From Scatophagus argus (taxonomy: Eukaryota > Chordata > Actinopteri > Scatophagidae): DNA of 64,000 nt. Below are positions 12,970-58,517 of the stretch, piece by piece. The position numbers were made by a program, and so were the translations under genes. The notes under the pieces are model-generated. The model saw only the letters and a program-made list of their open reading frames with translations. It searched no databases and was not told where the DNA came from. The stretch lies in NCBI RefSeq assembly GCF_020382885.2, contig NC_058504.1, forward strand, positions 22,743,545 to 22,807,544, in the 5' to 3' direction. How positions within the stretch are numbered: position 1 is the stretch's first letter; every line of letters begins with the position of its first letter.

Positions 12970-13593
12970 TCAGTAGATGCCCGGCACGAAGCTGCGGAAG
13001 CCGTACAGCGCGTCCTGCTGCAGGAAGCCGTAGTCCTCCGGCGCGTCGGGGCTTTCGGGGCTAGAGGCGCAGTAAGGTGGGGAGGAGGAGGACGAAGAGC
13101 CGCTGGAGCTCCAGGAGCAGGCGTCGCTGCCAGGGCTCGGGGCCTCAGCGAGGCACACCGAGCTCAGCAGCAGAGGAGAGTCGCTGGTCTTTCCTGCTTG
13201 CAGGTCGGCGATGCGGATCGTCTCTGACAGCGCCCAGATGTAGTTGTGCGCAAAGCGCAGAGTCTCGATTTTGGTGAGTTTGGTCTCGTCCGGGAAGGCC
13301 GGCAGGACGCCGCGCAGTGCGTCCAGAGCATCATTCAGGTTGTGCATGCGGTTCCTCTCCCGGTCGTTGGCCTTCATGCGCCGGTTCTTCTTCACCACCT
13401 GCACGGTGGCTTCGCTGCGGGCGCGGCCGCGGCGCCGCTTCTTCTGCTGCTGAAGCTGCTGCTCGGGGTCCGGGGAGCGCGACGGGCAGGATTCCAGGGA
13501 GGAGGAGTGCGGGCTGCTGCGGGACTCCTCGTCGTCGGTGTGGGGGAAGAAGTCGCAGCTGTTGCTGTCGATGTCGGAGTAGACGGAGTCCAT
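12970..13593 (-). CDS. neurog1: Neurogenin-1, proneural bHLH transcription factor
   Basis: This is a complete 207-residue reading frame in one coding exon. It is a nuclear transcription factor that, with an E-protein partner, binds E-boxes and commits progenitors to a neuronal fate (known for the family). The basic region and helix-loop-helix lie at about residues 71-125; the basic motif [15 protein letters not shown] and the helix-2 motif [15 protein letters not shown] are the neurogenin type. [10 protein letters not shown] basic stretch precedes it (51-59), an acidic stretch sits near the N-terminus, and the C-terminus is Ser/Pro-rich with a serine tract. The start is the first ATG after a 5' UTR splice acceptor. 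The coding region is GC- and CpG-rich compared with its flanks. neurog1 is preferred over neurog2/3 from the VYSD...CDFFP N-terminus. It is the only gene in the first 25 kb. Confidence 0.95.
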
Positions 13594-13619
13594 GGCAGAG
13601 CGGAGGATGCGGGTTTGCT

Positions 13620-13723
13620 CTGAGGGGAGAAGAGAGGAGCGCGTTAGGATCTGCAGCTGAGCACGTGCATTTTGTGATGAGCAGAAGCCCGCAGGTGAGC
13701 GGACACATGCGCAGAGAACTTAC
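13620..13723 (-). other. neurog1: Intron in the neurog1 5' UTR
   Basis: On the minus strand a good donor (TTCAG|GTAAGTTC, exon ending at 13,724) and an acceptor with a pyrimidine tract (CTTCTCCCCTCAG|AGC, next exon starting at 13,619) bracket a 104-base intron just upstream of the ATG. The non-coding first exon would run from about 13,845 to 13,724. Inferred from splice signals only. Confidence 0.65.
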
Positions 13724-32315: not shown

Positions 32316-35300
32316 TCATGGCTTCCCCACATCCACTGTGATCTTAGTGAAGAGGTCAAACTTTTCTATTTTCACCACTTTGTAGGAAAGAGAGTTGATC
32401 CCATCTTTGTACATTGTCTCTCTGGTGTGAGCGATTCGGTCAAACCTGGAAGGAAAGCACAAAAAGAAGAAGATTTTCTCTGTCAACAGGTGAGGCCTTC
32501 ATCAGTTCATACATCAGTGTTAATTGCTTAAACTGAAGTTTGGGACAAATACTGAACAAACCGACATTAAGATGTTTCTGTGTTTGACAGGTGGAATACA
32601 CCAGACAATACACTGAACCATTGCTCAGCGACAACATGAGTGTCCTCTAATAGCATCAGAATCAAAACAAACATGGCCGACAACCACTAGCTTGTTTCTA
32701 TGCAGCAACATTTGTACTGAAAAGGCCAAAAAGGGGAGAATGGCAGGTTTCCCACAGTGTTTCATGGAGGAATCACATGTGTGGTCAGTCAGTCTCTATA
32801 ACAATACAAAAATAATATGAACATGATGTGAGGATGCTCACCTCTGAGGGTTCGGCTCGTTCTGTTTGTCTCTGTTGTGTCGGATCATCCGACATTTTCC
32901 AACCTCACCGCTCGGTCTGGAGATGGACATCCCTTTAGACGCCAGCCTGAAAACACGACAGGAGCTTTCACTGAGTAACAGAAGTTTCACTTCATACAAA
33001 CATGCAACAGCACTGAGGTCAAAGCAGGACAACAGAAAAATGTGATCAAAGTACTGTGAGGGATTAAAACACATACAAGCAGACTGTTGTGATCTTTCAT
33101 CTCCAGACGGATTGTGGATAAACTGATTCAGGCATGACTTTAAAAGGACTAACCCTCCTTTTTGACAAAGCCTATAGTTAGGACTGTTCAGCTGGGGGAG
33201 ATCCTTAGACACCGAGCTTTCAGAGCAGAGGGACCCACTCATCATGTCCCATCACCAGGTACAGCATTAACTCGCCCTCTCCCACGGAGCTCTTGTGCTC
33301 CATCTTTCCTTAGCACTTCTGGAGCATGTTGCTGGATCCAGAATCTCCTGCCCCGCCCTCCTGAGGCCTGGTACCACTGCTGGATCCTGAGTCCTCTATG
33401 GCACTACCTACTGGACTGATAGTGCTGCTGGATCCAGAACCCTCTCCATGGCCCTGCCTGGATCCGGCTGCTCCTGCTCTGCACTGTTCTCTCCTCTCTC
33501 CCTTTTCTCTCTATCTCCCCCTCTCCTTTCTCTCTCCATCTCCCTGTCTGCACTTTAAATAAAATTGAATTGAATTAAACTTTGTGTTGGAACAAAATTC
33601 TAACATCTTAAGTATCTGAAACTTTTATTGAGTTACAAAGATCAGAAGTCACTGAAGAAATTGTTTCCAAACCAAACAGGAAAAAGTCCCCAGTTTAAAA
33701 ACACCAAAACACAGAAATTAAGTTTGTGCTACTCATTTTTTGAAAATAAATAAATAAATAAAAAAAGGAATCTGTTTCCCTTATGAACCAATTTCCCAAA
33801 ACAAGGATCTCTGGCATTGTTTCAATTGAGTTCACTCCTTCTCCACAAGTAAACCATCTTCCTATGTAGATCAGTTAGAGAGCCCCTCATCTTTGTATAC
33901 AGAGTATGTAATGAGGATGAGCATAATCAAAGAGTACCTGTTGTAGATGTCGTCGTCCTCCCCTCCCCAGCCCCAGTAGTTATTTGGGAATCCATTGATC
34001 TTCAGATATTGTTGTTTACTCATGGAAGAAACTCCTCCAAAATATTGATTATAAGGTAACCTGCAGGACAAAGACAAAGGATATGAAGACAAACTGTCAC
34101 ACTTTTTACGACGGCAAAAACCGAATGTAAAAGAATTGTGAGACCCCAAAACATGGACCTTTTTTAAGGTTGTGAAGAAGACCCAGCAAAACCTGAATGA
34201 CTTGTTTTAAATGGTGTCAGGTGCACATGAAATTTCAGCCTCTGTAAAACATGCCATTTTTAAATAAACACATGAATCCTCTGTATCACTGCTGAAGAGG
34301 CAGCAAGGACAGACAAATTTACCGAATGAGTGTGTATAGCTGTTTTCACACTTCATTAAACTTCACTTTTATGGTGTAATGTGGTGTGATAATGTGTGAA
34401 AACATGAAAGCAGTTGAAATCAATGGCTTAGATCAGCATCCGTTTGTTTGAAATTCAAGATAAGATAATTGTTTCTTTGTGATTTATATTGACTGAGTTG
34501 AGCTGTTTATTTTGCACTACACTATCACAATATGCCAAGTGACTTCAATGGCTGAAACATTCTGGCTCTGTGGCCTCTGCCCTTTCTCCTTCAAGTAAAT
34601 ATGAATCTGCACCAAGAAGCTGTAGCTTAGCTTAGTATAAAGACTGGAAACAGAGGGAAACAGCTAGCCTGGCTCTACCAGCACCTACAAAGCTTACCTA
34701 TTAACACAATGTATCTCAAGTAAAGAAAAGTAGGCATGGGCAGGTTGTGAGCAAGACCAGTTCTCCACTGGGACCAGTAACTTCCTGGAGTCTCTGTTGA
34801 TTGCCTGGCAACTGCTAATCTAACACACAACAACACCGCAACTTGTTTGTACATGAGATAAAATGCGCTAATCAGTGAGCTTTGGAGGTGCTGGTGGAAA
34901 CAGGTGAGCTGTTTCCCTCAGTTTCAAGTCTTTATGCTAAGCTAAACTAACCACCTCCTCCTGGCTATAGCTTCGTGTTTCACATACAAACATGAGAGTG
35001 GAACTACTCTGACTGTCTGACTCTCAGATACTGACACCTGTGGATATAATACTAAATGCAGAGGACCAAAGTGTATTCAACACCAAGGAAAGAAACAAAA
35101 AACAAACACACAAAATAAGAGTATTTCTTTGATGATTTTCTGAGAGTCATTCTGGACTACACTGCTGCTGATCTACACTGAAGTCCACTGAACAGTTTAC
35201 TGAATGTACATAAGTGTACAGTATTACAAACATGTTGCAGTTAGTCAAACAAAACTGTGAAAGATTAAACCAAGTGAAAGATTAACAAATGTAAATGTAA

Positions 35301-41129: not shown

Positions 41130-44100
41130 CAAATGCTCTCATGCCCAAGTGAGTTTAAAAGGGACATTTATGGTTTTCATTGCAACGAGAGTTCTTCAGG
41201 ACTTTTTCAGGAACTCTGCACCACATGAGCTCAAAACTCTGTCCCTTGATATAGAATAACATCAGTGTGTCACTTCAACCTGTTTCAGTTGGTCCTCTGT
41301 GTCCACACCATGTCTGACAGATTATTCATGTTTGTGACTAATGAGCTGCATCACACAATTCCAGATAGGTAAAATGATTAATCACGGTCCAAGTTTAATT
41401 ACCCTCAGTGTTTGTTTAGTTTTGTGTATTTTTTAGCTCCAGGTTAGATATATCTGAGCTCACAGAAAAGAAGCCTTCAGATTGTAACAGAGTGAATGTT
41501 AGACAGGTGTAGTTTAAAAACATAAATGTGACATCACACTGTACCTGGTTGATGACATAGACGCCGTAGTCAAGCTGCTGTCTCTGCAGGATTGGGTGTA
41601 GGTAGTACAGCCAGTATTTCAGGTGTTCATCTCGTTTGCGGAAGGGGATGATAATGGCGACTTTCTGCCGCGCCTCACAGTCTTTGGGTTTGAAGCGCCC
41701 GCCTGGCTGCAGGTTGGGATTGTCTTTCTTAATCTGCTCCATATTCACAGGAATATTAAACTCCACCCGAAGAGGCCCCACTGAGGACACATCAAACATC
41801 AAAATCAAAATGACTGCATTAAACTGGGATGTTATTCATCTAACTACAGAGGGAAAGAGGAGGATGAAAGAAATCATCAAAAATTAAGATTTGTTGGCAA
41901 GTTCATGCTGTTAACTGAAGCTGGACAAACTTCCCAAATGTGACTGCACATATTTAACTGTATGTTGTGACACTAATCAGCAATACGTCACAAATCCTCC
42001 TCCATCATGCATTAATTAAAATACACCACCCAAAGAAAAGCCACATTAATTCATCCAATCAGCATTTCCCTCTAGGTGGCTACATCACTTTATTGGTATG
42101 GTCATGTAGTGAGATGAAAATAGACAGAAGAGATGTGCATTAGTTGAGTTTTAGTTTACTCAGTTTGCTGCATATAAATCAGAGAAAACAGAAAAGCAGA
42201 GTTTTCTACTGAGACAATTGTAGCACAAAAAGCAGAACATGAAACTTCTTCATGAAGGAGACAATTTTCCAAACTTCAGCAGGCTTTTCAGTGTGTAATC
42301 AGACAAATATGTTGGTGCAGAAAGAGGCTGGTTTCTGTCCAAACAGCTCATTAACACACAGGCATCAGGGCTTACTCAGACGGGTACTTTTCCATCCTGA
42401 CAGAGAGACTTTAGAGAAAACAGTTCTCAGGTCAGATCTGGACTCTGTCTTCATATGCAAATAGTTTAATAACAGACACTAAAACACAGCTTTGGATTTT
42501 ATTAACGTCTCTGTAACTTGTGACCTCATGCTGGAGAAACATGCAGACTATAAAACAAACATATTTAGTCCTGTTTGTGTCTGTCTGCTCAGAGAGACAT
42601 CTGAACCAAGCAGCAACCTCAATGTCTGAAAAATGAAGCCAACGCAGAAGACTCCAGTTCCTCCAACAGCCATTTCTGGCTGGCTCAAAAAGCAAATCAT
42701 TGGTGGCTCAAAGGGTGGTGGTGGTGGGGGGGGGGTGTCACAGCTGAGGAAACATGGACACCATCAGACTGATAATAAATAATTTCGATCATCAAAGCTA
42801 CACAAACTGAGACAGCATAATCACATCCTGTTCACGTCAGTGCAAGTCACTGAACTCCAGATCAATCCTGCACAGTCCACTGTTCTCTGAGACCAGAACT
42901 GTTCAGTTATTGCAGAACTGAGTTGCATTGCTCTATAAACATGGTACTGACAATGAAGAGCACATGTTATCAGTTATTTGTACTTCCAGAGCAAATAATA
43001 ATAATACTTAACTACAAACAACTAAAGTACTACTCTTAGTAGCTGGACATCAATATGCGATATCCACAAATACTGAGAACACAATCTGCCGACCAAAAGC
43101 CACAGAAAATCTGCTTTTCTACAATCTCTCCACTTTCAGCTGTTGCTGCTCTCTACAGGTTTGCTCTACAGCCAGATAAGTACAAGCTGAATATCCGCAG
43201 CTTTAACCCTCCACAAGCTGAAGTGTACAATAACACACAACAGCTGCTGCGAAGATAACAGGACATAACTCTGAGCTACACAGAGAGAGCAGCACTGACA
43301 GAAAACACGAAGAAAAAAAGAGAAAGAAGAGGAGGAGGAGCTTCTACTGAGACTCTGACTGGTTATGCGACAGACACTGAACAATAAAAACCACACTGAA
43401 GAATAGAGGTGTAAGGGTAACAATTTTACAAACTCACTTTCAGTTCATACCTCTTTTGGTGGAGGCGGTGAATAACAATAAACATAGATAATAAAACTTT
43501 CAATAAGGCATGGTTTTATTAAAGCAACTATAGTCTGAAATATAGAGAGAACACTTTGATGGTACATTAACTTGATTAACTTCACATTAATGAACTAAGT
43601 AAACAAATACTGATAAATAAACTTTTGTCATTTACAAGCAGACCATGAAGTCCACATGGACAGCAAAATCAGTCAAAGCAAGCAAACCAAATGGAGAAAG
43701 AAACAGACTGACAAAACTTGATTTAGAGAAGGTAATGAAAGAAATCAGCTTTCAGGGCTTTGTGTCAGATGGCTTTCTGTCAGAAAATCCATAAAACTTT
43801 CTGTTATAAAGCACTTAGTATAAAGAGTATCAAAGCCTGCAAAGGCAGCATGGCGCTGTGGGAGACAGGGTTGTACACAAACTGTGATTCGTGTCCCATG
43901 ACCAGCCTTACTTGCAGTTTGATTAGGGTGTAGGCACCCAATCTCTTTTGTTTGATTTATGCAACAAAACTATTAGGTTAGATTAAGGAAAAGATTGTGA
44001 TGTGGGTAAATTGGACAATCTTGTACTGTCAAACACAATCTTGTACTGTTATTGCACACTTCAAAGGAGCCTTAACTTCCAACCAGTTAGAAATCAGCAG

Positions 44101-49555: not shown

Positions 49556-52172
49556 TAGGGCGCGCCACCATGATAATTATAGACGTTTACAGTGTTAAAT
49601 TATAACTCATTAATTAACTCACAAGATGTAAAAACAACAAAAAAAACACTTATTATTATTAAGTCAGTTTGCATTAAAATGATTCATTGGTAGATTGGTA
49701 GTTTATAAGAAAGGAAACTTTGAAAAAACAAACTCGAACAATTAGGCTGTATGAATGGCTGTATGAATCAGCTGTATTCCAAATATCTACAAAAAACAAA
49801 GCAAATAAGACTCAAAATATGCTTAAAACTACCGATATTAGTGAGTTGAATTACATGCATATTTTGTTGCTGATATTATTATTATTGTAATTTAATGCAC
49901 CATGAGATAAAATATAATAAATAAAGAAAAACTGAAACACAAAATGTATCCAGACTAAGCACACATATAAAAGTGGCTTCCAGTTTAACTAAAGACGTTC
50001 TGCTGTTGTGCTTATGGATTTTATATTTACTCCGTCCTGCCATTGTAGAAGCAGCTTGAACGCTCCATGTAGGGGTGTGGCTTCTTATGACAACTCGACA
50101 GTATGTCAACATTCGATAATCTTAATGGCACATGCAAGTTTATTTATGAATCAGTGATTGATGTTTATGAATCACTTATTGTTTGGTCTGTTTTGATTCA
50201 GGTCAGAACAGCTTCTGATTCAGAATCCTCTTTCAAAACTGATCCAACAAAGTGATTAATGAAAAGAAAATATGAATCTACTTATCTTGTTTTTGAGAAA
50301 ATCTAAACCTGTTAAACACTTCCTAGCACCGACCATCAGTCATTATATGACTATATAGACCTAAATATGTTGAATTTATTAATTGGTTGTGACCAGACAA
50401 GCAATGATGAAAGTGAAGCAAAAACACCACCATGTGGTACAAAGATGTAAATATAACCAACACCTAACTTGTTAAACTTTATTATGTCTTTGTTGTTTAA
50501 TTTTTTCTTGTTAGTTTTTCTCTTATTGTTTTCTGTTCTTGTTATTTCTTTCTGCTATTTTGTTTTGTTTTTGCTTGTCACATTTTCAGTGTACAAATTT
50601 GTTCTTGACCTTGAGTTTGTGACAAATAAAATGTCTAAGATCAACGTCCACTTGCCAGTATTTTCTTCAGAGCTTTCAGCCAAATTTCAAGTTCTTGCTC
50701 AGCTGTTGTCACTGAGACATTTGTCATCTATACTTAAAAAGAAGACCCGAGGGTGTGGTGAAAGCTCTCTATATACAGGTTTATAGTACTTACACAGTGT
50801 TCATTTAGTTCTGTGGACACACATGGAGGATAAGTTGAACCTAAATTAAAAGTAAAGGATAAAACGGCACAGAAACTCTAAACATTATTCAAAGAATCTG
50901 ATTCAGTTTGAAATGTGGGTTAAATTATCCTGGAAAGTAACAGTTGTACAGAGGATTATATTGATGCATAAACTGTGTTCATTGTATTCACCTTTTCTGT
51001 GAGCTCCATACATGTCGGTTTTAATCATGTGGCCAAGATAGTTTTATAATGTCAGTATTTTAAACATAGAGAATGTTCACAGTAGCTCTTATTTCATATC
51101 TGGTTAGTTCCTCGAACCGATGTCATCAGAAAAAGACAAGGCTTCACACCTTTTCCTTCATCTCTCATCAAGTGTTCATTTGATCCAAGGCTAATGAGCT
51201 GAGGGTTTGAACTGAAAAGTTAGAGCTAACTGAAATGTGGGGAAAGCATCCCTGATCAGTGCATTTTTTTCCCCAGCCTGCTTCAGGGTTCTGCAGCAGA
51301 CCCTGAACTCTGACCATGGAGGAAAGAAAGGAACATTTTTCAGTGGGAGACAGTGGAGTAGCAGAAAAAAAAGATACGAACAGAACCAAACATTGTAGTT
51401 TGTATGCTGCTTCAACAACATTTGGAAGGAGACATACTACACAAATTCATAAAAACTGATATACTGGAGGACTGTAAGAATCACCTCATTAACAATAGGT
51501 TTTATGAAAACAGGATTTTTCTTTAATAAATATTCAGAGTTTCTTAAGGTTGCACTGCTAGATAAAATTATGAACAGAATGTACTGTTGACAGTGACTAC
51601 AGAGAAAATGATTACAGCTTTTTCTGCTGCTTGCTCTATTTGTGAAAAGGTCATTGTAATCATAGGTGGTGCTGTCCTTTAGAAACTTGAAACAACTACA
51701 ATAAATATTATATCTCAGCTTTTTCATTTTTTTTAAAAAATAAAACAACAAGGAGAGCAGGCTCATTCTGGAGCTAAGAATTTCACACTTGGAAATAGAA
51801 ATGCTATGGCAATCACAACGGACAAAAATCACGTCTCTCATAGTTTATGATTTGTTTCTTCGTGTTAGAAATCCTGTCAGTAATTGTGTTTACCCTTGTG
51901 CCCCAGCTTCATTCCTCAGAGGCCTGCCTGGAAAAAAGCACAAAATTGTCCTCTGAAATGTAGAGGAGTAAAAGTATAAATGGCGTGAAAAGACTCGAAT
52001 TTGTAATGAAAATGTGCCACTATACACAGACCTACTATAAATATAATTCTGAATATGATAAATACACACAATTTAAGGACTGTTTTCTACACTGATTAAA
52101 CATTTTAATATCTTGATTTATTGAATTTACTCCTCCTTGAGTTTCAAAAACTTACAGTTCCAGCTCGGGGGG
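49556..52172. other. Intergenic between the divergent b4galt1 and rest promoters
   Basis: AT-rich, no supported exon or recognised repeat. b4galt1 and rest are divergent, about 2.6 kb apart at their presumed promoters. Confidence 0.5.
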
Positions 52173-52188
52173 TGACGTGATGACGTCA
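52173..52188. promoter_or_regulatory. rest: CRE/ATF double site at the rest promoter
   Basis: TGACGTGA (52,173) directly abuts a perfect TGACGTCA (52,181-52,188). The flanks make a GGTGACG/CGTCACC inverted repeat, in a CpG-containing stretch about 140 bases upstream of a strong 5' splice donor (AAGAGTCG|GTGAGT, exon end 52,328) that fits a non-coding first rest exon. Confidence 0.5.
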
Positions 52189-52239
52189 CCCGTCGTACGT
52201 AACTGGCTGTGGAGGAATGTGCGGAAACTTCTGCTGCAC

Positions 52240-52328
52240 TTTTCTTTCTGCGCTGCTCGTCGAAGAAAAAAGTCACAACGCTGGAAAAAGTGAAGGAAAC
52301 TTGAGTAAAGTTTGGCACTAAAGAGTCG
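52240..52328 (+). other. rest: Putative non-coding first exon of rest
   Basis: CpG-containing sequence ends in a good donor at 52,328. The matching acceptor (TCTCTGCAG|CTTCTC) starts the ATG exon at 53,753, 37 bases before the start codon. The 5' edge of this exon is a guess. Confidence 0.4.
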
Positions 52329-53226
52329 GTGAGTTTCAGTGCTGTTTGGCATAAAATGTCGGTCAGTACAGTGAAGCTGCTGACTAGTTGTTAGTCAGGG
52401 CAGAGCAGCTGGGAAGTTGTTGGCAGTTTGGAGGAAAATGGAGGCTGTGAGTTGGTGAAGAAGGCGCTGTCCGGGGCTGATCAGGACCATGGCTAACACT
52501 CCGACACTATCAACAAACTTGAAACACATCGACCCAGCACGTTACTTTTACTTCATTGTTAAAAACTGCACAAAAATCATATATTTTATAGCAACTTAAA
52601 ACACGTAAATCAAAACGCCACTGTTTGATTCGAACTGCGCTTCCGCAAACCAAGTTTTCTGAAACACTGACAGAAGCTGAAAAGCACAACCACGATTTTA
52701 TATCCTACTACGCTGAAAGTGAACAGAACGCACAGCAGAAATGTCTGGCTTTATTTTAAAACTTACATCAGTAGATATCGCAGTAACAGATCGGATTGTT
52801 TTAGAAATGTGTTGATGTTTTAATCCCCAGAAAGACGTGAAGCGCTTTTAAGATTGAGATAATCACAGAGTAGTAACACCTCTCGACGCTAAAGTGGATT
52901 TAATTTTACTCCATCAGAGATAAAAAAAAAAAAAAACGTTAGCTCGTAGTAATATTCCAAACTTTTATTTCAAGTTTAACTATTCTTAAGATTTAATCGG
53001 TAAGATGTTGTAAACTCTTTGATTTGAGTTTTTTGTTACGTTGTACGAAAAAGGTCCTGTTACTTCCCTTTTGCATCTTCTAACATTTGGCAATCAAACT
53101 AAGGCGAAGTTTGGATTTTTTTTCACCGCAAAACGATGAGATTCAAAGTCTTAGAACTGCCTTTTCGTTGTACTTAGTTAAAGTTGGTGTTTTACAGAGG
53201 AAGTCCTGAACGTGTTTTTCCCCCAC

Positions 53227-53253
53227 GGCGCTGTCGACTAAGTTGTGGTGCTG
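53227..53253 (-). promoter_or_regulatory. rest: Split RE1/NRSE silencer site in rest intron 1
   Basis: On the minus strand CAGCACCAC and GACAGCGCC, the two halves of the REST-binding consensus, each match at 9 of 9 positions in the correct order and orientation. They are separated by 9 bases instead of 1, an extra 8. That is about 19 bases centre to centre, within the expanded class of RE1 sites described in genome-wide REST binding work. Position: 500 bases upstream of the ATG exon. Confidence 0.6.
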
Positions 53254-53789
53254 TTTCAAAATGGCCGACAGACACATTTTCATTCTGCTGAGAGATTCCA
53301 CAACACGGTGTGCTACATATAATTCATCTCTGAACAGTTGACCAGAGAGGTTTAAAACATATGGATATATATATATAGATTGCAGTTGTATAGTAAACAG
53401 AAGTGCAGTTAGTAATAAATGCCAATGTGAGCACAAAATACTGAGGGATAGGCCCTGATTCAGGTGTTTGGGCACCTGGAGGTCCCTTTCATTTCAGTTT
53501 GCAATGTAACTTTTGCTGCACAATTACATCAAGCACATCTATGTCTTTGATGTTCAGTTGGGCCACAAATTTTTACACTAATGCGTTATTATCTGAATTT
53601 TTTAACACTGTTTTAATATTAGACTGGTGTATCGTTAAAAAAGTATAATTGCGCACAACCATTTTCACAAAAGTAAAAACTACACAAATGTGTTTGCATG
53701 CTGTGTCACTCCAGCCGTGTGCACGATAATGAATACTGTGGTGTCTCTGCAGCTTCTCGTCCTTGTGGAGGTGAAAAGCTGAACTCAGC

Positions 53790-55600
53790 ATGGCTGATGA
53801 GACAGTGTTTTCGGTGGAGATGTTTCCTGTCGGTGTGCCTCTAACGGAGGAAAGCCAGAGTCTCAGTGACATGCCTGGGAACTCACTGCCCGCCCCTCAG
53901 CTGGTGATGCTGGCCAACGTGGCAGCGGTGACGGCGGCTGAAGGTGGTGGTGGCGATGGCAGTGCGGCAGACGAGAAGGAGATGATGGAGCTGAAGACGG
54001 TGGGATGCAGCTACTCGGACAGCGACGACGAGAGCATCATCAGGTCTCCCAATGTTGCTGCATTGTATTTTAAGTAAAAAGGTCATTGTGCTATTTGAAC
54101 AGGTGGTACAGTCACACAGGTGTGGTCTGTTCGGTGTGACGTGGAAAGAAATAGTTTTCTAGTCTAGCCAGAAAAGTAATGTAATAACTCTGAAATAAGT
54201 GACCAAATCTTAAATCAGTTTGTCCAGCAGATACATATCATCAATCACATTAAATTAGGTTACAGTTGTTTGACATAGCATGTTTGATTCACTTTGTCTT
54301 CAGTGATTTAAACATAATGGCTGTCTTTCCTGTGTGTTAACTCACCTGTGTGTCTGATCAGGTACAGCTACGACAACCAGAACCACAGAGAGTTCTGTAT
54401 CATTGAGTACCCTGAGTCTCCGGGCCCGGGCTTCAACGCTGTGGTTGTAGGAAATGGCGAGGAGGAGCGAGAGGAGACCGATGGGGACAAAGCTGAAGAT
54501 TTGTCTCGGAGTAGTCAGCCCCACTCCTCTGCCAGCACAAAAACACCTGAGAAGGATACAAAACACAAAGACACTGCCGCCACTGCTCCCGCCGCCACTG
54601 CCACCACCACCACCGAGGCCACCACCAAGAAGAAGAAACCTTTCCACTGTAAACCATGTCACTTTCAGGCTCAGAATGAGCAGGAGTTTGTCGAACATCT
54701 CAGCACTCACGGCATTAGCAAGATGATGGTGGTGAATCGGGTGGAAGGCAGGAGCAGGACCAAGGGCAGGGAGGGGGAAACAGCAGAGTCCCAGGTACCG
54801 GCAGGTGGGGATGTGGAGAACAGCGGGGAGGCCGCAGTGACAGCAGGTGATATCAAAGGACTCATCAGGTGTGAGCGATGCGGCTACAACACCAACAGAT
54901 ACGACCATTACATCGCCCATCTGAAACATCACAGCAAGGAGGGCGACGACCACAGGTACTACAGGATCACCACAGAAACACACCAACAAAAGAAGGGATG
55001 TAGACTGTCAGCAAATACGCAAAGCGGCATTCAAATGACTTCTTCTTTCTTTTTTTTCAACAAATGAGGAAGGAGATGTGTTTGTTGGAGCTCAGTGAGA
55101 CACACAGTGAGCTTTAGCAAGAAGCTTTGCTGACAACAGCTGATATATTGACATTTAAAATGATTGGTCACAGGGGCGACAACACACCCCTGGGGTTAAT
55201 GTGAATGGTGTGATGAGTTAATGTGATGTTCAGATAAAAGACAGTGTTAGCCACATCCAAATGAGTTACAAACATTTAACACAAAAATGTTGGGAAAATA
55301 TATATATAATTATTTTTTTTTATTATTATTTTTTTATATGCATCTGGATCCTGTGAATGTTCAGCATGTGATTTGCAAAATATAATCGATAATTTAATAT
55401 GTGTGCATGTGTGTGTGCTGTTGTGTGTCTGCAGGGTGTTTAAGTGCACTCTGTGTCCATACACCACCGTCAGTCAGTACCACTGGAGGAAACACCTGAG
55501 GAATCACTTTCCCAGCAAACTGCACACCTGCAGTCAGTGCTCCTACTTCTCTGACCGCAAGAGCAACTACATCCAACACATCAGGACACACACAGGTAGG

Positions 55601-55637
<37 letters not shown>

Positions 55638-58517
55638 GGATACCTGGATACTGTTAGAATCATGTGAACGACCAGATTTCCCATGCTCCACATATCCTAA
55701 ATAAGATCAAAACCAGGACACTGATGTGCATGTAAATGTACTCAGTCAGTCATCAGCGCCACCAACAGAAAATCTGTCCAATGTTTCAGTTAATGGCAGG
55801 AAATCTCTACACCTCAATCAATCAACCAAGCAGATGATAAAACTGACAGACTTTTTTTCTGTTGTTCAGGTGTTCGTCCTTTCCAGTGTCTGTACTGTGA
55901 CTACTCCAGTTCACAGAAGACCCACCTGACCCGACACATGAGGACTCACTCCGGTCAGTTGTCCACAATTGTTCCTTTGCTGGAAAAAACCCTTCATTTG
56001 TAGATGTGACTCAAAAAAAATATTGTAAAAGTTAAAATAAACAGTAAAGCTAGTACAGTAGTAGTTATAGTAGAGGATTATGACTAAAAGATTGTTATAA
56101 TTGTGTTTTTTCTTGTTTTCACTCTGTAAACATGTTTGTGTTGCTCTCACTTAAGCACTCGATGTGGGATTGACATGGTAAAGTGATTAGCATTAGCATC
56201 CACATGCTGTGACCTTCTGTGTTGTGTTGTGCTCCTGTCTGAGGTGTTCACACCAGAGCAGATCAGGCTGGAACCACACCTGTGTTTTCAGGTTTATCTG
56301 TTCTGGTGTGAAACTTCCTGCATGAGAGATTTTAGACTGTTAGTGAGTGTTACATGGTCTCTATGAAATTAGATGATCTTCCAATAATTTTCACAATTAG
56401 TGGATTAATTGTTTAGTCTTTGTGAATGTGAAAGAACTATGAAAAATACAGAATTTCCCAGAGTCCAGTGTGACATTTATTGATATCAGCTGATAGTTCC
56501 TCAGATGTATCAGTCAGACTCCCTTGCTGCATGAAACCCTTTGGTGTCTTGCCTGTGCGCTGTCACATTGTGCACTGCGGTATTTTGACATCTTCTAACC
56601 TTCTTGTGTGCAGGAGAGCGTCCTTTCAAGTGTGAGAGTTGTAATTACCTGGCAGCCAACCAGCATGAGGTGACCCGCCATGCCCGGCAGGTCCACAATG
56701 GCCCCAAACCTCTCTCCTGCCCATACTGCGAGTACAAGACTGCAGACCGCAGCAACTTCAAGAAGCATGTTGAACTCCACCTTAACCCTCGTCAGTTCCT
56801 CTGCCCTCTCTGCAAGTATGCCGCCTCCAAGAAATGTAACCTGCAGTACCACATCAAGTCCAGGCACTCCGGCTGCAACGTCTCCATGGACATCTCCAAG
56901 GTCAAACTGCGTGTCAAAAAACCTGGTCCTGATGGCACAGAGGAAAACTCCAGAGCAAACAAGAGTGACAATTCATCCAATGTCGAGGACTTCGACATGG
57001 ACGAGGACAGTGGTGACGCGGACGAGGGTATGGAAGCAAGTCCAATCAATCTGTCAATCAGAAAGAGCAGCCGGCCCAGCATCAGCCAGCCATTGCACAG
57101 TGAAGTGCCTGACAAAATTCAGAAGAAAGCCAATGTCACTTCAGAGAAGGAAAAAATACCAAAAGCGAAGGAACCAGAGAAAAAGGTCACAACAAGGCAA
57201 AAGAAGGTTGAAAAGGTCAAGGAGAATCTCCTGGAGAATGCACCTGTTAAAGAAATCCAAACAGAGACAGTGACACCTGCTGTAAATCCAGCCAACAAGG
57301 CAAAGAGACGAGTCAAGAAACACCCGGCAGAGAAAACAACTGCCCGCAATCAAGTGGAAGTAACTGAATCCGAAGACCAAATGCAGCAACCCGATCAACA
57401 AAGATCGGAGGAGGAAAGAGAGGAGAGGCAAAAAGCTGAGAACAAGGAAGCAAAGTTGCAGCTGGAGAATGGGAAAGAACATCAAAAGAATGATGTCAGT
57501 GGAAAAGAGAACAAAAGCCTCAGTAAGCTCAGGAAGTCTGGATTGAAGAAGTCAGAAAAAATACCAGAACATGTTGAGGAAGCTCCGCAGAAACTGGAGA
57601 GCTCTGAGAAAATTCAAAAAGAAAAAGTGGTCAAAGAAAAACCTGCAAAGAGGAAAGCAGCAGAGGCCCTTGATCTTTCTAGAAAATCCTCGTCTGAGAC
57701 TCCATCCAAAACCAGGCGACCAAAAGCCACTACTGCAGAGATGCTGCAGTTGAAACCCACTTCAGAAAATACTCAAAAGATAAACGACACTACTCAGATG
57801 CCACACAGGTCCAGTGGGACAACCCCCGTGAAGCAGAAGAAGACCAGGAGCACCAGCAAGAAAGCCACAGGCCTTCAGCAAGCCGTGGTTCCGGTTAAAG
57901 ACAAGAAAGCTTCCATCAACAGTTCACCCACAGACACTCCAGAAGAATCCTCTCAGCCAGACAACCCAAAACTAACCATAATCCCAGAGTTCCAACCGAC
58001 TGAAAACAGTTCGGCACAGAAGAATCCTTCTACGGATCAAACAACTCCAGTAGTACCAGAAAAGGTTCCGAACAAACCCCCAGAAAAGATGGAAGTTTCA
58101 CCCACCTGCAGCTCAGGTGAGGACACTCCATCTCCAGCTGAAGACTGCCCTCCTCCAACTTTTCTTAAACCCACATCTCCACCTCCTCTGGTGCTTCCAG
58201 GCCAGCGCAGCAAACCCACTGATCCAGAGGACGATGAGGGCATCCACAGCAGCCATGAAGGGGGAAGTGACATCAGTGACAGTGCCTCTGAAGGCAGCGA
58301 CGACTCTGGCCTCAATGGCAATGGCGCCGGGTCAGGTAAGATGGCCAACGACCCTGAAACGCCCACTGAAGAGATCCCAACACCGACTGAGCTGAAGAGT
58401 CACTTGTGCATCTTCTGTGACCGTACATTCCCTTTGGAGATGGAGTATCGCCGCCACCTGAACCGCCATCTCGTCAACGTCTACTACATGGATAACACAA
58501 ACAAAGGACAGAAATAG
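53790..58517 (+). CDS. rest: RE1-silencing transcription factor (REST/NRSF)
   Basis: Five coding exons: 53,790-54,043, 54,362-54,955, 55,435-55,595, 55,870-55,953 and 56,614-58,517, total 2,997 nt (998 aa) with all phases closing. REST binds RE1 sites and represses neuronal genes in non-neuronal cells through SIN3/HDAC (N-terminal) and RCOR1/LSD1 (C-terminal) complexes. The sequence shows an N-terminal helix [14 protein letters not shown] (35-48) equivalent to the SIN3-binding segment. Finger 1 is at 179-201 and finger 2 at 254-275 ([22 protein letters not shown]). Fingers 3-8 follow through [19 protein letters not shown]. Then comes a long Lys/Glu/Pro-rich region of low complexity and a final C2H2 finger at about 961-983 ([11 protein letters not shown]...RRHLNRH), the RCOR1-contact finger. 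All nine fingers keep their C2H2 residues. A Thr/Ala-rich tract precedes finger 1. The neighbour noa1 is convergent, as in mammals. Confidence 0.96.
55600..55634. repeat. (CA)n microsatellite in a rest intron
   Basis: Starts within ten bases of the donor of the finger 3-4 exon (55,595|GTAGGAT). Confidence 0.93.

Follow-up and report, generated by a model that had tools for sequence, protein, structure and literature searches.

The question raised by this locus is whether the rest gene of the fish Scatophagus argus is repressed directly by its own product through an element in its first intron. The window, which is the whole 64,000-nucleotide stretch of DNA that was analyzed, corresponds to C12:22743545-22807544 of a 570.7-Mb genome of 48 contigs, and it had been predicted from the letters of this stretch that intron 1 of rest holds a functional split REST recognition element (RE1) for direct negative autoregulation. 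The placement of the site in intron 1 of rest was borne out, both by the identity of the gene and by the inferred intron. The joined inferred exons give a product of 998 amino acids in which eight C2H2 fingers form a cluster and a further one is C-terminal, and the Pfam model zf-C2H2_REST matches it at 82.3 bits versus a cut-off of 27, so that the gene has both the REST-type zinc-finger array and the REST-specific finger by which a REST gene is recognized. The same model gave one match in the whole genome, and as such a single rest-type gene was found and there was no rest paralogue to use for comparison. The exon borders were read from splice signals rather than from a transcript, and the features of the locus were placed as follows:

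52170-52191, plus strand: putative promoter element GGGTGACGTGATGACGTCACCC, which contains a palindromic CRE, shortly before inferred rest exon 1
52329-53752, plus strand: inferred intron 1 of rest, from GT...AG splice signals and the sequence
53790-58517, plus strand: coding part of rest, divided among five inferred exons (53790-54043, 54362-54955, 55435-55595, 55870-55953 and 56614-58517)

Elsewhere in the window, an open frame on the minus strand at 12970-13719 contains a basic helix-loop-helix domain (Pfam HLH) and is presumably neurogenin-like, and the minus-strand frames at 33871-34206 and 41416-41835 match the two family-7 galactosyltransferase domains of Pfam (Glyco_transf_7C and 7N) and are probably exons of one gene. 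A search of plasmid records identified no sequence neighbours of 52200-53800.

In the published descriptions, the 21-bp RE1 consists of a left half-site at positions 1-9 (TTCAGCACC) and a right half-site at positions 12-21 (GGACAGCGCC) with two bases between them (PMC9903721, PMC3529185), and its core, positions 2-9 and 12-17, is far less variable than the remaining positions (PMC1794552). Other spacings have also been described: gaps of 2 or 7-9 bp by ChIP-nexus (PMC8096226), repression at 8- and 9-bp gaps and not at other gaps in a human reporter assay (MPRA; PMC9903721), and halves that abut or are 1 bp apart, as well as halves expanded by 7-11 bp, in mouse ChIP-PET (PMC2573930). The window letters at 53227-53253 are GGCGCTGTCGACTAAGTTGTGGTGCTG, and the bases GGCGCTGTC-9-GTGGTGCTG that had been predicted there are present as described, with the half-sites in the right order and orientation, ~900 bp past exon 1 and inside inferred intron 1. 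When laid out on the published halves, the element extends to 53255:

53227-53236, minus strand: right half of the split element (RE1 12-21), CGACAGCGCC, 9/10 with a mismatch at core position 12
53237-53246, minus strand: 10-bp gap, acaacttagt as read on that strand, with the AC start and T end that are frequent in the split RE1s of this genome
53247-53255, minus strand: left half of the split element (RE1 1-9), AACAGCACC, 7/9, mismatched at positions 1 and 2

The split element is therefore AACAGCACC - 10 bp - CGACAGCGCC on the published halves, with three mismatches in 19 positions, two of them in the core, and the 9/9 matches in each half that had been reported become 7/9 and 9/10 with a gap of 10 bp. 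The left half had been drawn to include spacer positions 10-11 and to omit positions 1-2, and the right half to omit position 12; the scores of 9/9 arose because the omitted positions 1, 2 and 12 are exactly the mismatches. The half centres, given as 19 bases apart, are 18 apart by the halves as originally drawn and 19.5 by the published ones. The exact pattern GGCGCTGTC-9-GTGGTGCTG has one occurrence in the 570.7 Mb, but it was derived from the site itself and its uniqueness is thus partly circular; we discarded it as a significance test on the grounds that its borders had been placed around matching bases. Taking a split RE1 to have well-matched halves and an intact core at positions 2-9 and 12-17, this one departs from that description at core positions 2 and 12. 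Its 10-bp gap is one at which good halves are enriched in this genome, yet lies beyond the human ranges of 7-9 and 8-9 bp.

In order to rank the split element, both strands of the window were scanned at gaps of 0-12 bp, and it was the second-best RE1-like match. The best was an element absent from the original prediction, a contracted RE1-like sequence that shares rest intron 1 and lies ~135 bp past the inferred donor site of exon 1:

52463-52472, minus strand: right half of the contracted element, GGACAGCGCC, 10/10, with no other perfect right half present in the window
52473-52481, minus strand: left half of the contracted element, ATCAGCCCC, 7/9, with a 0-bp gap to the right half

With ATCAGCCCC abutting GGACAGCGCC, the contracted element has two mismatches in 19 positions, and when only the 14 core positions were scored at eight spacings no other window site had as few as one core mismatch, which in this element is at position 7. 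By the same scoring the split element was one of eight window sites with two mismatches. Intron 1 is nonetheless unusual, in that the two best RE1-like matches of the 64-kb window are both inside its 1.4 kb. No canonical RE1 (2-bp gap) with three or fewer mismatches was found in the window, and no RE1-like site with four or fewer mismatches at the eight spacings was found in the 10 kb downstream of it. A site of canonical spacing with four mismatches in exon 2 (54006-54026) was set aside as coding sequence. Two bases past the left half of the split element, from 53258, is AAAATGGC, which loosely resembles a YY1 site. That adjacency would fit a reading in which another factor, such as YY1, recognizes the sequence and its likeness to RE1 is incidental, but the window has ten loose YY1-like matches of this kind, AAAATGGC included, and we regard this explanation as very improbable.

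Chance was evaluated with the published motif at spacers of 0, 1, 2 and 7-11 bp, i.e., eight spacings. Among 400 dinucleotide block shuffles of the window there was a mean of 0.05 sites with three or fewer mismatches per 64 kb, and at least one site was present in 4.75% of the shuffles at three or fewer mismatches and in 0.25% at two or fewer. Based on the numbers of sites at control spacings in the genome (described below), the corresponding expectations for the whole window and all eight gaps are 0.10 and 0.0085 sites. To call the split element very improbable as a chance event over 64 kb was therefore too strong, given 0.05 (shuffles) to 0.10 (control spacings) expected sites. For intron 1, taken in the shuffles as 52330-53754, there were 20 of 20,000 shuffles with a site of three or fewer mismatches, one with a site of two or fewer, and one with at least two sites; among 2,000 permuted motifs that retained one CpG, any intron site was found in 0.15% and two sites in none; and the control-gap expectation was 0.0023 sites with three or fewer mismatches and 0.00019 with two or fewer. 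A sample of random 10-kb stretches totaling 200 kb, which contained one canonical site with one mismatch, one 1-bp-gap site with three and three sites with four, was replaced as the background by whole-genome counts.

These numbers bear on the reading that the two elements resemble RE1s by chance and are not bound by REST, and that fish rest is not directly regulated by REST via intron 1. We consider this a serious possibility, if somewhat short of an even one. It is favored by the 0.05-0.10 such sites expected window-wide and by the equality of the split element with the other seven window sites when core positions are scored, whereas the coincidence of the two best sites of the window in the one intron that had been named by a prior hypothesis argues against it.

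The whole-genome counts were made at gaps of 0, 2, 5, 8, 9, 10, 11 and 14 bp, with the counts for repeats being lower bounds. At the canonical 2-bp gap there were 1061 sites with three or fewer mismatches. For one, two and three or fewer mismatches, respectively, the counts were 8, 27 and 93 with no gap, 19, 44 and 181 at 8 bp, 22, 43 and 133 at 9 bp, 16, 37 and 118 at 10 bp, and 9, 28 and 135 at 11 bp, where one repeat accounts for three of the two-mismatch sites. The control gaps gave 0, 10 and 116 (5 bp) and 1, 9 and 111 (14 bp). Near-perfect halves are thus enriched at gaps of 0, 2 and 8-11 bp and not at 5 or 14 bp, and this genome makes use of the RE1 code. The enriched gaps of 10-11 bp fall outside the 7-9 bp of human ChIP-nexus (PMC8096226) and inside the 7-11 bp of mouse ChIP-PET (PMC2573930). 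A reversed-pattern control, which contains more CpG and gave 12-30 matches at gaps other than 2 bp, was dropped as the sole baseline; the true half-sites gave 116 and 111 matches at the 5- and 14-bp gaps, and with the reversed pattern alone the class of the split element would have appeared, falsely, to be about ten-fold enriched.

The enrichment at good halves does not extend to the class in which the split element falls. Sites with exactly three mismatches at a 10-bp gap number 81 versus a control mean of 104, and the other gaps gave 66 (none), 137 (8 bp), 90 (9 bp) and 107 (11 bp) against the same mean, so that among gaps 0 and 8-11 weak sites are in excess at 8 bp only. The contracted element is one of the 27 no-gap sites with two or fewer mismatches. 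Sites with no gap and exactly two mismatches number 19 versus a control mean of 9, and in 13 of the 19 position 9 is mismatched, whereas the rest element matches there and instead has C at position 7; the remaining six no-gap sites, the element included, are no more numerous than the 8-10 at the control gaps. Both classes, the 10-bp three-mismatch one and the uncommon form of the no-gap two-mismatch one, are therefore at control level, which again is in keeping with chance near-matches.

Several features of the genome-wide sites were also noted. Contracted RE1s among the no-gap sites often read TTCAGCACT-GGACAGC. Four copies of TTCAGCACTGGACAGAGAC are within ~42 kb at C2:11889304-11931286. A dense RE1 cluster spans ~390 kb at C12:12439444-12827451, with at least six canonical and at least five 8-bp-gap sites among the matches listed, and we would guess, by analogy with mammals, that it is a protocadherin cluster.

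The tolerance of individual positions was assessed with 122 split sites, having gaps of 8-10 bp and two or fewer mismatches (42 of 44, 43 of 43 and 37 of 37 among the matches listed). In this set C at position 12, A at position 2 and C at position 7 are each found once, and position 7 is changed in three sites. Among the best-matching 100 of the 1061 canonical sites, all have G at position 12 and 79 have an intact TTCAGCACCNNGGACAGC; a change at position 7 is found in none of these 100, which counts against the contracted element. The canonical RE1 with C at position 12 and otherwise perfect cores (TTCAGCACCNNCGACAGC) has no occurrence in the genome. A matrix was built from the 122 sites and is biased toward good sites, as they were chosen for two or fewer mismatches. 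The lowest of these sites scored 24.97 bits on it; the split element fell short of that with 20.2 bits, and the contracted element reached 27.1 bits, relative to a 5% point of 25.4 and a median of 32.6. Scores of 18.9-29.8 bits were obtained on the same matrix for ten two-mismatch control sites at the 5-bp gap, and a score of 27.1 bits therefore fails to separate real from chance sites. The gap of split RE1s was not random: its first base is A in 77 of the 122 sites, its second C in 71 and its last T in 73. As support for the split element the AC...T gap was rejected, given that it was found in 5 of the 63 listed three-mismatch sites, the element itself included, versus 4 of 88 control sites, with no clear excess.

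In view of these results, we consider it unlikely that the split element at 53227-53255 would itself be a functional non-canonical RE1 (ncRE1) for direct negative autoregulation. Such a role would be consistent with the 16 one-mismatch sites at the 10-bp gap, where the control gaps have 0 and 1 with at most one mismatch, with an AC start and T end of the gap that are common in the split class, with the expansion of half-sites by 7-11 bp in the mouse ChIP-PET study (PMC2573930), and with the excess of three-mismatch sites at the 8-bp gap (137 versus 104), which implies that a split site can be weak and still genuine. Against it are the two core mismatches, one of which, C at position 12, has no counterpart at canonical spacing among otherwise perfect cores, and the rarity of that base and of A at position 2 (1/122 each) together with the score of 20.2 bits on the biased set, and the AC...T gap is without clear excess in its own mismatch class. 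In support of the original prediction, good halves are enriched in this genome at gaps of 8-11 bp; the 10-bp three-mismatch class, which is that of the site in question, is without excess. At background level, the split element is unable to carry the claim of autoregulation by itself, and it is most likely a chance near-match.

The contracted element is more credible than the split element. The reading that we favor, at close to an even chance, is that in rest intron 1 the contracted element may be a plausible weak ncRE1, and that the split element is likelier a chance near-match or, at most, an auxiliary low-affinity site. Counting against both elements, repression in the human reporter assay was confined to gaps of 8 and 9 bp (PMC9903721). 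From these sequences we infer binding, repression and feedback at intron 1 in the following form. If the element works, REST would place zinc fingers 7-8 onto the left half and fingers 3-5 onto the right half, as does mammalian REST, in which finger 6 is flipped out (PMC8096226). Bound REST would then recruit co-repressors beside the rest promoter, and abundant REST would damp its own transcription. There was no REST zinc-finger structure among the matches listed in a solved-structure search (60 of 180). We also speculate, as a quite improbable extension, that fish rest has paired sub-optimal RE1s, one contracted and one over-stretched, that would act as a low-affinity sensor filled only at high levels of REST; if so, direct autoregulation would be older than the divergence of fish and tetrapods and would depend on weak rather than strong sites. 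Self-regulation by REST in this fish is possible. Irrespective of how this locus is read, the genome counts provide an empirical background for judging RE1 claims at single sites.

The elements of rest intron 1 may be compared with those known from mammals. Mouse Rest is reported to have three REST clusters, described as conserved from human (PMC2573930), the human REST gene contains an ncRE1 (PMC2687797), and several RE1 sites are attributed to the REST gene (PMC5323410). Human and mouse REST likewise have RE1-like elements at their own gene, with the difference that occupancy is shown there and the fish elements are candidates from sequence. The claim of direct negative autoregulation draws support from this precedent and from the second element in the intron, but one paper suggested positive and not negative REST autoregulation (PMC2782136). 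Among the matches listed in the open-licence literature, no title concerned an RE1 at rest in fish. The atypically spaced RE1s of the MPRA (8-9 bp) and ChIP-nexus (7-9 bp) studies share with the split element a widened gap and the order and orientation of the halves; unlike them, the split element has a gap of 10 bp and is mismatched at positions 1, 2 and 12, and the contracted element is gapless. That gaplessness is shared by 52463-52481 with the contracted RE1s (0-1 bp gap) of the mouse ChIP-PET study. A gap motif could not be recovered in the human reporter study (PMC9903721), whereas the fish genome has the AC...T tendency. Direct REST autoregulation has already been reported or proposed in mammals, and the fish case would join a known kind; if real, it would extend direct REST autoregulation from mammals to teleosts.
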